Assembly: GCF_000244975.1 (NCBI RefSeq)
Contig: NZ_CM001440.1
Location: 3,828,325-3,892,324, forward strand
Source of the DNA: Saccharomonospora cyanea NA-134
GTDB taxonomy: Bacteria > Actinomycetota > Actinomycetes > Mycobacteriales > Pseudonocardiaceae
DNA length: 64,000 nt
Direction: 5' to 3'
The notes beneath the pieces are model-generated. The model was not told the origin of the DNA. It did not search any database and was given only the letters and a program-made list of their open reading frames with translations. Both the position numbers and the translations under genes were made by a program. Below are positions 40,931 through 64,000 of this stretch, piece by piece (the first letter of the stretch is position 1; every line of letters begins with the position of its first letter).

Positions 40931-41533
40931 ATGAGCCGGACACCCGACCGATCCACCGACCCCGCCCGCGATCACCCGGCCGTCGCCAAGGTCGCCGTCG
41001 CGCTCGCCGAAGCGGGCCAGACCGACAGCGCCGAGCGCATCCGGTTCCTCCCCCGTGCCGCTCGCACGGCAGCGCAGGCCGCCGGAGCACTGGGAGTGCC
41101 CGTGGGCGCCATCGCCAACAGCCTGGTGTTCCGCATGACGACCGCCGACGGCACGTCGGCGCCCCTGCTCGTGCTCACCTCGGGCGCCCACCGGGCGGAC
41201 ACCGGCAGGCTCGCCACGCTCACCGGGGCACGGAGCGTCGAACGGGCCGATCCCGACTTCGTCAGGGCGCACACGGGGCACGTGATCGGCGGGGTGGCGC
41301 CGGTCGGCCATCCCGGTCGCATCACCACACTGGTGGACGAGGCACTGCGCGAGTACGGCACCGTGTGGGCGGCGGCGGGACACCCGCACACCGTCTTCCC
41401 CACCACGTTCGCCGGCCTCGTCGCAGCCACCGGAGGCCGCCCCGCCACGGTCGCCTCCCAGACCGTCCGCGTCTCCCACGCGGGCCCACCCGACTCGACC
41501 GACCCCCACACCGGAAGGGCAGCACCACGATGA
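40931..41533 (+). CDS. YbaK/EbsC family aminoacyl-tRNA deacylase-like protein
   Basis: The 200-residue protein has a YbaK/ProX fold. Its marks are AAQAAGALGVPVGAIANSLVFR near the N-terminus, the stretch VGHPGRITTLVDEALREYGTVWAAAGHPHTVF in the middle, and ATGGRPATVAS near the end. Such domains hydrolyse mischarged tRNAs, for example Cys-tRNA(Pro). The conserved Lys of active enzymes was not confirmed. Its stop overlaps the next gene's ATG. Confidence 0.85.
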   Translation: MSRTPDRSTDPARDHPAVAKVAVALAEAGQTDSAERIRFLPRAARTAAQAAGALGVPVGAIANSLVFRMTTADGTSAPLLVLTSGAHRADTGRLATLTGARSVERADPDFVRAHTGHVIGGVAPVGHPGRITTLVDEALREYGTVWAAAGHPHTVFPTTFAGLVAATGGRPATVASQTVRVSHAGPPDSTDPHTGRAAPR

Positions 41534-61063: not shown

Positions 61064-62569
61064 TCAGACAGCCAGCGGCAACGCCGTGGGGTGAACCGGT
61101 GCGGGCAGGTCGGACGCGCCCATCAGGTACTCGTCCACCGCCCTGGCGGCCGAGCGCCCCTCGGCGATGGCCCACACCACCAGCGACGCGCCCCGGTGGG
61201 CGTCACCGCACACGAACACGCCGGGCGTCTGCGTCTGCCAGTCGGCACCACACGAGATCGTGCCCCGCCGGGTCAACGACAGCCCGAGACCGTCGAGCAA
61301 CGGCATCCGGTCCACACCCTCGAAACCGATGGCGAGCAACACCAGGTCCGCCGGGATGCGCTCGACCTCCTCGCTGGTCGGAACGACCTCACGACGGCCG
61401 GTCTCCGGGTCCTTGCGCACCTCCACCGTGCGGAGTTCGAGCTGGCGCACCCGACCGTCGTCGTCCCCGACGAACCGCTGCACCGCCACGGCGAAACGCC
61501 GCTCGCCCGCCTCCTCGTGAACGGGGTACGTGCGCAGGACGTAGGGCCATGTCGGCCACGGCGAACGATCGTCGTCCCGAGTGGACGGTGGTTGCGGGTA
61601 GCGGTCCAACTGCGTCACCGACAACGCACCCTGGCGGATCGCCGTGCCGTAGCAGTCGGCGCCCGTGTCGCCACCGCCGATGATCACGACGTGCTTGCCC
61701 TCGGCGCTCACGGCCGTGGAGCCGTCACCCTCGCACTCCCGGTTGGCGGGCACGAGGTGTTCCATCGCGAGGTGGATGCCCCTCAACTCCCGGCCCGGTG
61801 TGGAGGTGTCGTCACGACCACGCAGCGCACCCACCGCGAGCACCACGGCGTCGAACCGTTCCCGCAGCTGCTCCACGGTGACGTCGACACCGACCTCGCA
61901 ACCCGTGACGAACCTGGTCCCCTCCTCCCGCAACTGCGCGAGCCTGCGGTCGAGAACCTTCTTCTCCATCTTGAACTCGGGAATGCCGTAGCGAAGCAGT
62001 CCACCGAGCCGATCGTCCCGCTCGAACACGGTCACCTCGTGACCGGCGCGGGTGAGCTGCTGCGCCGCCGCCAGCCCGGCGGGACCCGAGCCCACCACCG
62101 CGACCGCCCTGCCCGTCGACAACGCCGCGTGCTGCGCGCGGAGGCGTCCCGACTCCCACGCGTGCTCGGCGATCGTCTCCTCGACGCGCTTGATGCTCAC
62201 CGGCCCACCCGAAGACGGGGAGATCGCCAGCACACACGCCGCCTCACACGGCGCGGGACACAACTTGCCCGTGAACTCCGGGAAGTTGTTCGTGGCATGC
62301 AGGCGCTCGGCCGCACGTTCCCAGTCGTCCTGCCGAACGAGGTCGTTCCACTCCGGGATCAGGTTGCCCAGCGGGCAACCGGCACTGCCCGAGTGGCAGA
62401 ACGGGATGCCACAGTCCATGCAACGCGTCGCCTGGGTGCGTACCGCGCGATCGCGCTCCCCGACGTCGAGTTCGGCGTACACCTCGCGCCAGTCCCCGAC
62501 CCGCTCGTCGCGCGGGCGCTTGGGCGGATCGACCCGGTCATACCGCAGGAAACCCTTGGGATCAGCCAC
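61064..62569 (-). CDS. gltD: glutamate synthase (NADPH) small subunit
   Basis: The 501-residue flavoprotein takes electrons from NADPH and passes them to the large subunit. The N-terminal iron-sulfur cysteines appear in CMDCGIPFCHSGSAGCPLGN and CPAPCEAACVLAI. FAD and NADPH sites are VVGSGPAGLAAAQQL and VVIIGGGDTGADC. The GTG at 62569 follows GGAGG by six bases. Its start overlaps (GTGGCTGA) the stop of a repeat-encoded mini-frame rather than the stop of gltB. It is next to gltB in the normal gltB-gltD order. Confidence 0.95.
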   Translation of the reverse strand: MADPKGFLRYDRVDPPKRPRDERVGDWREVYAELDVGERDRAVRTQATRCMDCGIPFCHSGSAGCPLGNLIPEWNDLVRQDDWERAAERLHATNNFPEFTGKLCPAPCEAACVLAISPSSGGPVSIKRVEETIAEHAWESGRLRAQHAALSTGRAVAVVGSGPAGLAAAQQLTRAGHEVTVFERDDRLGGLLRYGIPEFKMEKKVLDRRLAQLREEGTRFVTGCEVGVDVTVEQLRERFDAVVLAVGALRGRDDTSTPGRELRGIHLAMEHLVPANRECEGDGSTAVSAEGKHVVIIGGGDTGADCYGTAIRQGALSVTQLDRYPQPPSTRDDDRSPWPTWPYVLRTYPVHEEAGERRFAVAVQRFVGDDDGRVRQLELRTVEVRKDPETGRREVVPTSEEVERIPADLVLLAIGFEGVDRMPLLDGLGLSLTRRGTISCGADWQTQTPGVFVCGDAHRGASLVVWAIAEGRSAARAVDEYLMGASDLPAPVHPTALPLAV

Positions 62570-62642
62570 GCGCCGCCTCCTGTGTCTTGCGGGACACCCG
62601 CACCCGATCGGCACGCGCGACTGCCCAACCATTCTCAGCCAC
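62562..62642 (-). CDS. repeat-encoded 26-residue mini-frame 2 (possibly translated)
   Basis: A GTG start with AGGAGG six bases upstream opens a 26-codon frame beginning VAENGWAVARADRVRVS and ending QEAARG. The stop overlaps the gltD start by eight bases. It is nearly identical to mini-frame 1. It may only serve to couple translation, and there is no evidence that the peptide has a job. Confidence 0.35.
   Translation of the reverse strand: MAENGWAVARADRVRVSRKTQEAARG
62565..62637. repeat. 73-base direct repeat, copy 1
   Basis: This copy is 72 of 73 identical to 62638-62710, differing at the tenth base (C for T). It begins GCCACGCGC and ends CCATTCTCA. The repeat is not a multiple of three. 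Confidence 0.95.
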
Positions 62643-62715
62643 GCGCTGCCTCCTGTGTCTTGCGGGACACCCGCACCCGATCGGCACGCGCGACTGCCCA
62701 ACCATTCTCAGCCAC
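62635..62715 (-). CDS. repeat-encoded 26-residue mini-frame 1 (possibly translated)
   Basis: It has the same GTG start and AGGAGG-like site as mini-frame 2, and opens inside the last codons of gltB. Its first eight bases (GTGGCTGA) include the gltB stop, and its own stop overlaps the start of mini-frame 2. Confidence 0.35.
   Translation of the reverse strand: MAENGWAVARADRVRVSRKTQEAARG
62638..62710. repeat. 73-base direct repeat, copy 2
   Basis: Second unit in direct tandem, with no spacer, after copy 1. A third, partial copy of 17 bases follows at 62711-62727 and lies inside the end of gltB, which suggests that gltB was the source of that end of the repeat. Confidence 0.95.
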
Positions 62716-64000
62716 GCGCTGCCTCCTCCATGATCGCTTCGTCGACGTTTCGTCCCTGCGCTCTCGCCGCCTTCGTCGCCTCCAGGACCCGGCGGTAGTC
62801 CGTGGGCACCACCTTCACGAACGCCGCGGACCGCCGTCTCCAGTCACCGAGCAGGGAGGCCGCGACCGGTGAACCGGTGAACCGGTGGTGCCGTTCCACG
62901 ACGTTCCGCAGCCAGGCGAGGTCCTCCGCGTCCGGTACGTGCAGCTCGACCATCGCGGGGTTCAGGTCACGTTCGTCGAGTCGCAGCACGTACGCGATAC
63001 CGCCCGACATGCCCGCGGCCACGTTGCGGCCCGTGCCGCCGAGCACGACGGCATGGCCACCCGTCATGTACTCGAACGCGTGATCCCCCACGCCCTCGGC
63101 GACCAACAGCGCACCGGAGTTGCGCACACCGAACCGCTCCCCGACCTGCCCCCGCAGGAAGAGCTCGCCCGACGTCGCGCCGTAGGCGAGGGTGTTGCCC
63201 GCGATCACCTGGTCCTCGGCCGCGAACAGTGCTTCCGGGTCGGGACGCACGATGATCCGCCCGCCCGACAGTCCCTTGCCGACGTAGTCGTTCGCATCCC
63301 CCACCAGGTCGAGCGTCACCCCCGGAGGCAGGAACGCCCCGAGCGACTGGCCCGCCGACCCGGTGAGTCGCACGTGGACGGTGTCGTCCGGCAGCCCCGC
63401 GCTGCCGTAACGGCGGGTGACCTCCGACCCGAGCAGGGTCCCGACGGTGCGGTTGACGTTGCGCACCGGGAGCTCCAGCCGCACCGGCCGCGCGTCCTCC
63501 AACGCCGCCTCCGCGAGTTGGACGAGCGTGCGGTCGAGCGCCCGGTCGAGACCGTGGTCCTGCTCGCGCACCTTCCTGCGCGCACCGCCGTACGGTGTGT
63601 CGGTGGGCACCATGAAGATCGGCGACAGGTCGAGCCCCTTCGCCTTCCAGTGCTCCACCGCGTCGTCGACGTCGAGCAGATCGGCCCTGCCGATGGCCTC
63701 GTCGAGCGAGGTGAACCCGAGGCGTGCGAGGTACTCCCGCACCTCCTGCGCCACGAACCGGAAGAAGTTCACCACGTGCTCGGCCTGGCCGGTGTAGCGC
63801 TCGCGGAGGGCGGGGTTCTGGGTCGCGACCCCCACCGGGCACGTGTCCAGGTGACACACCCGCATCATCACGCACCCCGCCACCACCAGCGGCGCGGTGG
63901 CGAAGCCGTACTCCTCGGCTCCCAACAGCGCCGCGACGATGACGTCGCGGCCGGTCTTGAACCCACCGTCGGCCTGCACGGTGATGCGGTCGCGCAGCCC
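62708..64000 (-). CDS. gltB: glutamate synthase large subunit (partial, N-terminus outside window)
   Basis: The visible 430 residues are the C-terminal end of the large subunit. The QADGGFKTGRDV start, the 3Fe-4S cysteines in GCVMMRVCHLDTCPVGVATQ and the Gly-rich C-terminal beta-helix (GGTGRNVAAGMSGGIAYVL) are all present. The large subunit makes two glutamates from glutamine and 2-oxoglutarate using electrons from GltD. The sequence is open to base 64000. The stop lies inside the repeat region. Confidence 0.95.
   Translation of the reverse strand, partial: GLRDRITVQADGGFKTGRDVIVAALLGAEEYGFATAPLVVAGCVMMRVCHLDTCPVGVATQNPALRERYTGQAEHVVNFFRFVAQEVREYLARLGFTSLDEAIGRADLLDVDDAVEHWKAKGLDLSPIFMVPTDTPYGGARRKVREQDHGLDRALDRTLVQLAEAALEDARPVRLELPVRNVNRTVGTLLGSEVTRRYGSAGLPDDTVHVRLTGSAGQSLGAFLPPGVTLDLVGDANDYVGKGLSGGRIIVRPDPEALFAAEDQVIAGNTLAYGATSGELFLRGQVGERFGVRNSGALLVAEGVGDHAFEYMTGGHAVVLGGTGRNVAAGMSGGIAYVLRLDERDLNPAMVELHVPDAEDLAWLRNVVERHHRFTGSPVAASLLGDWRRRSAAFVKVVPTDYRRVLEATKAARAQGRNVDEAIMEEAARG

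Follow-up and report, generated by a model that had tools for sequence, protein, structure and literature searches.

The 166 bases at the junction of gltB and gltD on the minus strand of a 64,000-nt stretch of the Saccharomonospora cyanea NA-134 genome (hereafter the window) probably represent a miniature mobile element, present twice in tandem, that maintains the coupling between these two glutamate synthase genes. The array consists of two direct repeats of 73 nt, at 62562-62634 and 62635-62707, which are identical at 72 of 73 positions, plus a partial third one at 62708-62727; Tandem Repeats Finder gave it a score of 325, compared with 55-62 for the other five rows reported in the window. 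These copies and their position exactly at the gltB/gltD border had been described in an original prediction made from the sequence, and both were confirmed.

The composition of the units also agreed with that prediction. Each 73-base unit contains a GGAGG and a GTG start that opens a frame of 26 codons; this frame closes in GTGGCTGA, where, as the frame positions confirm, the stop overlaps the next start in eight bases. The C-terminal part of gltB (62708-64000, running off the window) ends with a TGA at 62710-62708, the GTG at 62715 starts a first 26-codon frame (62635-62715) with its stop at 62635, and the GTG at 62642 starts a second (62562-62642) with its stop at 62562, which overlaps the GTG at 62569 where gltD begins (61064-62569, 501 aa). 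The gltB stop and the gltD start both lie inside the same eight bases, and both mini-frames are open and encode identical 26-residue sequences. The gene assignments were supported by NCBIfam matches to TIGR01317 for gltD (glutamate synthase small subunit; 620.8 bits, cut-off 447.7) and to NF008730 for gltB (large subunit, C-terminal part; 419.5 bits, short of the whole-protein cut-off of 1047, as the gene leaves the window).

Resolved into target and insert, the array alternates three copies of a 19-nt target, GGAGGCAGCGCGTGGCTGA, with two inserts of 54 nt. The first target copy (62708-62726), delimited with the help of an allele that lacks the insert in another species, carries a GGAGG, a GTG start and the gltB stop; the second lies at 62635-62653, and the third, at 62562-62580, supplies gltD with its GGAGG and its GTG start. 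Insert 1 (62654-62707) is made up of a loop (62697-62707), an arm, T' (62683-62696), that pairs with 62709-62723, a core with a hairpin, P2 (62661-62675), and the tail AGACACA (62654-62660). Insert 2 (62581-62634) has the same parts, with its arm at 62610-62623 and P2 at 62588-62602.

Copies of the element were found in all 12 genomes of a genus sample with one genome per species, with 4-20 pattern matches per genome compared with 0-2 for reversed-pattern controls. A search of the window's own genome (G000) with the gltB/gltD junction returned nine matches; among the loci that were read, eight sites lie in this genome and 19, including gltB/gltD, in the genus. Sites were grouped by eye, and a chance match (L126), a locus with no junction (L113) and one L099 core about 1 kb from the pcaH-pcaG array were dropped. 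In the surroundings of 60 loci, nearly all copies are sense-oriented and sit where an upstream stop overlaps or just precedes a downstream start, and short-form units are spaced 67-78 nt apart. The host junctions, named by eye from translations except for gltB and gltD, are those of both gltBD operons, pyrB-pyrC, pheS-pheT, nuoE-nuoF, lysA-hom, zwf-opcA, rplE-rpsN and pcaH-pcaG, an rbsA-rbsC-like pair, an ABC permease pair, and others. A core-pattern match with three mismatches elsewhere in the window, at about 41375-41396 (G000:C1:3869699-3869720), is probably due to chance, and L113, in G008, has a degenerate core with no gene overlap nearby.

Alleles with and without the insert were found side by side in the genus. 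At the window's gltBD junction, read by eye in eight genomes of as many species, seven carry 1-5 units (two in the window's own genome) and one, G007, carries none; copy number thus varies, as had been suggested, and an identical two-copy state is not fixed. In the empty allele of G007, 54 of the 73 unit bases are missing and gltB and gltD overlap by the 8 bases GTGGCTGA, bearing out the ancestral overlap that had been postulated. Filled and empty alleles also occur at five more junctions, those of pyrBC, lysA-hom, nuoEF, zwf-opcA and pheST. At pheST, G003 is filled and G004 and G005 are empty with nearly identical flanks, and 19 bases are duplicated; at lysA-hom, G005 is empty, G003 and G004 are filled, and 24 bases are duplicated. 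These alleles and their duplicated bases indicate that what had been called a 17-base partial copy, although the sequence is indeed there, is not a remnant of a repeat but the 19-nt target at 62708-62726, duplicated by insertion, and that a unit is made of this target plus about 54 element bases.

The original prediction had instead taken the array for a duplication of the local 73-base stretch, with no mobile element involved. Such an origin would account for exact 73-base tandem units that include a target copy, and slippage would yield units that resemble each other within one species, as they do at this junction, but only the target of about 19 bases is local: the other 54 bases are missing from the G007 allele and present at other loci and in many other genera, as befits a dispersed element. 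Local duplication as the origin is refuted by these observations, and we give it almost no weight, whereas tandem slippage is a likely amplifier of units already in place.

A second gltB-gltD operon is present in the genus, and its junction contains the same element (L025, L034, L036 and L037; G000:C1:1002821-1003415). Among nine genomes read there by eye, four have 1 or 3 units, two are empty and three have a diverged insert. The latter (L017, L018 and L019, in G004, G003 and G005, respectively) is about 149 bases long, with a different core and an inverted target copy, CACGGGTGA ... TCACCCGTG, that is perfect in two of the three; it may perhaps represent a sister element family. Other variants include a long-form unit (L010, L021, L074, L085, L111, L116 and L153) with about 33-40 extra bases and an inner hairpin that replaces the short P2, which can be found together with short units within one array, and two lysA-hom loci (L132 and L097) where short core remnants adjoin target copies and resemble internally deleted units.

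Analysis of unit architecture revealed an arm that matches the site in which each element resides. Within a unit, a copy of the target (T) is followed by the loop, the arm T', the core hairpin and then the next T. The stretch preceding the constant core, GACCGGGTGCGGGTGTCCCGC, is variable between sites and complementary to the local T, so that T' can pair with the preceding target copy, across the end of the GGAGG, the start codon and codon 2, in a hairpin that we call P1; P2 is formed by the constant GCGGGTGTCCCGC. When arms were dealt to other sites (68 first units of 19 sites, one unit per site), the mean energy of own-site T-T' duplexes was -24.5 kcal/mol compared with -19.9 kcal/mol for permuted ones, with 0 of 20000 permutations as good, and the own target was within the best four of 19 targets for 15 sites. 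The window's own unit has a predicted fold of -33.6 kcal/mol, versus -26.6 kcal/mol for shuffled sequence (z -2.6), a stability matched or exceeded by 2 of 200 shuffles.

Both hairpins, and double compensatory changes, were recovered from an alignment (A1) of 58 short-form units from 56 loci, hand-picked from 101 units of 64 loci; A1 omits L032, L073, L074, L078, L080, L099, L107 and L111, and long forms are in neither set. With the structure specified, 93.9% of cells in A1 were paired and 12 pairs had changed on both sides, whereas sliding the partners by 1-3 columns left 32-49% paired and 0 of 500 shuffles reached any of five measures. When all 101 short-form units were used, the 16 predicted pairs had 96.0% of their cells paired (32-56% in slid controls). 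Covariation was also evident within single sites of A1, where pairing is preserved across all genomes at 37 of the 67 variable pairs (slid, 2-12) and 13 show double changes (slid, 0-4).

The P1 cells of A1 (n = 744) comprised 606 Watson-Crick, 73 G-U, 5 A-C and 60 other combinations, compared with 105 G-U and 44 A-C in shuffled data, and over all 101 units (n = 1010) there were 119 G-U and 8 A-C. Because G-U is tolerated and A-C is avoided, the fold that has been kept is that of the sense strand, either as mRNA or as single-stranded DNA. The second of these options would make T' and P2 single-strand hairpins that a transposase or recombinase recognises as the element moves, with the RNA fold a by-product. 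A unit inside nuoG fits this idea, as its P1 is fully paired (26 of 26 cells in two genomes) with no gene start at stake, which suggests that P1 may serve the element itself. So do the P1 loops of other genera, which by eye often contain GCGAAGC or GCGGAGC after a GANNAT-like stretch, sequences that form unusually stable DNA mini-hairpins. However, the avoidance of A-C together with the tolerance of G-U suits RNA at least as well, covariation goes on after insertion if same-site insertions represent one event, and a Y1 transposase (PF01797, the IS200/REP kind) was found in only 4 of the 12 genus genomes and not in the window's own, other enzyme kinds not having been searched. We regard such a DNA-level role as possible but less likely than not.

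It could also be imagined that T' acts as a switch, pairing with either the preceding or the following target copy, such that ribosomes on gltB would set the accessibility of the gltD start. The T-T'-T order of junction arrays is what such a switch would need, and the energy of T' with the following copy (-21.8 kcal/mol) nearly matches that with the preceding copy (-23.1 kcal/mol). Across 62 arrays, the preceding copy was the better partner in 23 and the following in 15, with 24 ties (p 0.04); but where the two differed by at least 3 kcal/mol, T' favoured the preceding copy in 13 arrays and the following in 4, and pairing with the downstream start is therefore not what is conserved. We consider a switch of this kind improbable.

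Reading frames provided a further line of evidence. A path of overlapping frames leads from the upstream stop to the downstream gene in 54 of 59 arrays (44 by reinitiation, 10 by in-frame fusion) and in 77 of 118 controls shifted by 1 or 2 bases (p 1.1e-4), and in the two gltBD operons all 11 arrays reinitiate at gltD, compared with 9 of 22 frame-shifted controls (Fisher p 0.0016), although these p values are too small, as arrays at the same site are related and not independent. The result for gltBD upheld the view that a chain of coupled frames has been kept. Five arrays without a recognisable downstream gene were skipped in this test (two of S12, and S100, S105 and S106), and nuoG, L114 and L118 were omitted. 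In different species an array may close at every unit, run through its units or be fused with the gene that follows, and at fused arrays the start codons of the downstream genes are likely to be mis-annotated. That the mini-frames might encode a functional peptide had been raised in the original prediction and could be argued from the two open frames of the window, with their shared 26 residues. The constant core is read in differing frames between sites and even within one array (L005), which speaks against a peptide, as does the variety of closed, run-through and fused arrays among species, and we find this explanation scarcely credible.

The element is not confined to Saccharomonospora. A covariance model (R1) built on A1 was applied to family, order and class samples with 10-14 candidates per genome and strict filters, and the counts are lower bounds. 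The element was present in at least 109 of 297 genomes and at least 28 of 46 genera of the family sample, in at least 41 of 397 genomes of the order sample, and in at least 3 of 394 genomes of the class sample at E 1e-5. Seven of the order-level genomes are outside the family: four belong to a single genus (g65, in family f8), and the other three are weak single matches. Among the R1 matches listed for the order sample, none fell in a genus of family f8 besides g65. An exact-core scan had, among the matches listed, Amycolatopsis, Saccharopolyspora, Prauserella, Nocardia, Skermania and Actinophytocola, as well as the Promicromonosporaceae genera Myceligenerans and Antribacter. For 78 first units from named genomes among the matches listed, the own-target energy was -22.0 versus -18.4 when permuted (0 of 20000 permutations as good, the lowest being -19.7).

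Searches of other sequence collections returned little. Among plasmids there was a single match (E 6e-6; 46% of the query covered at 92% identity), to a 2.66-Mb record of Nocardia farcinica, and the phage sequences searched gave no match to the element. With Rfam 15, no family reached its gathering score in the window at 62300-63000 (best E 5.6, outside the element), and the best hit at seven loci (E 0.056) was outside the elements and below gathering scores. The literal core was not found in searchable paper texts, and no published description of the element was recognised in the literature searched, which consisted of titles and abstract openings with few subscription journals covered.

We propose that a miniature mobile element entered the overlapping gltB stop and gltD start, that insertion duplicated the target of about 19 bases, from the GGAGG through the gltB stop, and that tandem amplification of the inserted unit followed. 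The target copies would supply each mini-frame with its start and its stop, and the element's length of about 54 bases would let the duplicated start open a short frame that closes on the next stop. A ribosome finishing gltB might then reinitiate, traverse one 26-codon frame per unit and reach gltD, on a transcript in which each unit would fold into P1 and P2. Movement of the element was presumably enzyme-driven, the mini-frames are probably translated, and P1 may be kept to make the insert harmless by shielding the duplicated start.

Several observations weigh against parts of this proposal. In G001 and G005 (L321 and L322), nuoG holds a whole unit as an in-frame insert of 23 or 24 residues with no long target duplication, and the simple model fails here; this unit is missing from eight other genomes that were read, a count that does not include two further genomes with a match, which escaped the pattern used for this reading. 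No movement was observed, and instead of representing ancestral states, empty alleles may have arisen through loss, by recombination of one target copy with another. Arm matching is uneven: the nuoEF arm, the worst of the 19, pairs better with the targets of 14 other sites, and among the 78 listed arms from named genomes, whose targets are much alike, the own target comes within the best 5% for only 24%. In the 101-unit alignment, 11 pairs show double changes, compared with 6-11 in slid controls, one of which equals it. The advantage at gltBD is confined to reinitiation, since 18 of the 22 shifted controls have some path when the nine that fuse in frame are counted, and outside gltBD frame keeping is partial, with 10 arrays that fuse in frame and 5 of 59 without a path. 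As to shielding, the predicted unpaired fraction in static folding was 0.32 for the true start and 0.31 for the duplicated one (29 of 50 arrays, p 0.69). A masked duplicated start beside an open true start is unsupported by these values, and because the true start is no more open than the duplicated one, the masking role of P1 is unproven.

The element shares features with several known systems. REP/REPIN sequences, which are associated with RAYT proteins, are likewise short, dispersed hairpin elements that are mostly intergenic, but the element described here sits sense-oriented at stop/start junctions, with a target duplication and an open frame. A REP/RAYT partner is unsupported by the PF01797 counts given above. 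In translational bypassing elements, such as those of T4 gene 60 and the mitochondrial byps, matching sequences also flank a hairpin insert, but the frames of our element tend to be open and in phase, which bypassing does not need. The closest known things appear to be mycobacterial interspersed repetitive units (MIRUs; Supply et al. 1997); the element seems to work like them, a likeness drawn from published descriptions.

In the passages seen of the sources on MIRUs (PMC12548453, PMC4213456, PMC9392950), these are short repeats, apparently mobile and inserted at start codons, with an inner frame coupled at -4 nt (PMC12548453), and two or three 77-bp repeats occupy the senX3-regX3 junction in two BCG strains (PMC9392950). 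The element similarly forms short, often tandem units dispersed through the genome, inserted at start codons, as the empty alleles indicate, with predicted inner frames that couple to the flanking genes in the 54 of 59 arrays noted above; exceptions are the nuoG unit and L113. It differs from MIRUs, as those passages present them, in that its gltBD and pyrBC sites overlap by 8 bases and not 4, and in its arm complementary to the local target, which the same passages do not mention. On this partial view of the sources, the element is MIRU-like with the addition of a target-matched arm.

How the arm comes to match each target that is entered is a matter on which we can offer only a tentative and rather doubtful suggestion, namely that base-pairing between the arm and the target strand, at its ribosome-binding site and start codon, guides insertion, or that the arm is written from the target as insertion proceeds. 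If true, a target-templated or guided arm would in one step cover the duplicated start with a hairpin and create a frame that restores coupling, and would point to an insertion system, distributed across actinobacteria, that is aware of translation and matched to its targets. The junctions of gltBD, pheST, pyrBC, nuoEF, rplE-rpsN, zwf-opcA and lysA-hom carry the insert in some species but lack it in others, suggesting that a mobile element can persist in core operons while leaving translational coupling intact. The signal from the locus-matched arm and its compensatory changes is clear and is naturally replicated many times, in the form of filled and empty alleles at one junction, which make both the passage of ribosomes between genes and the movement of repeats directly testable.

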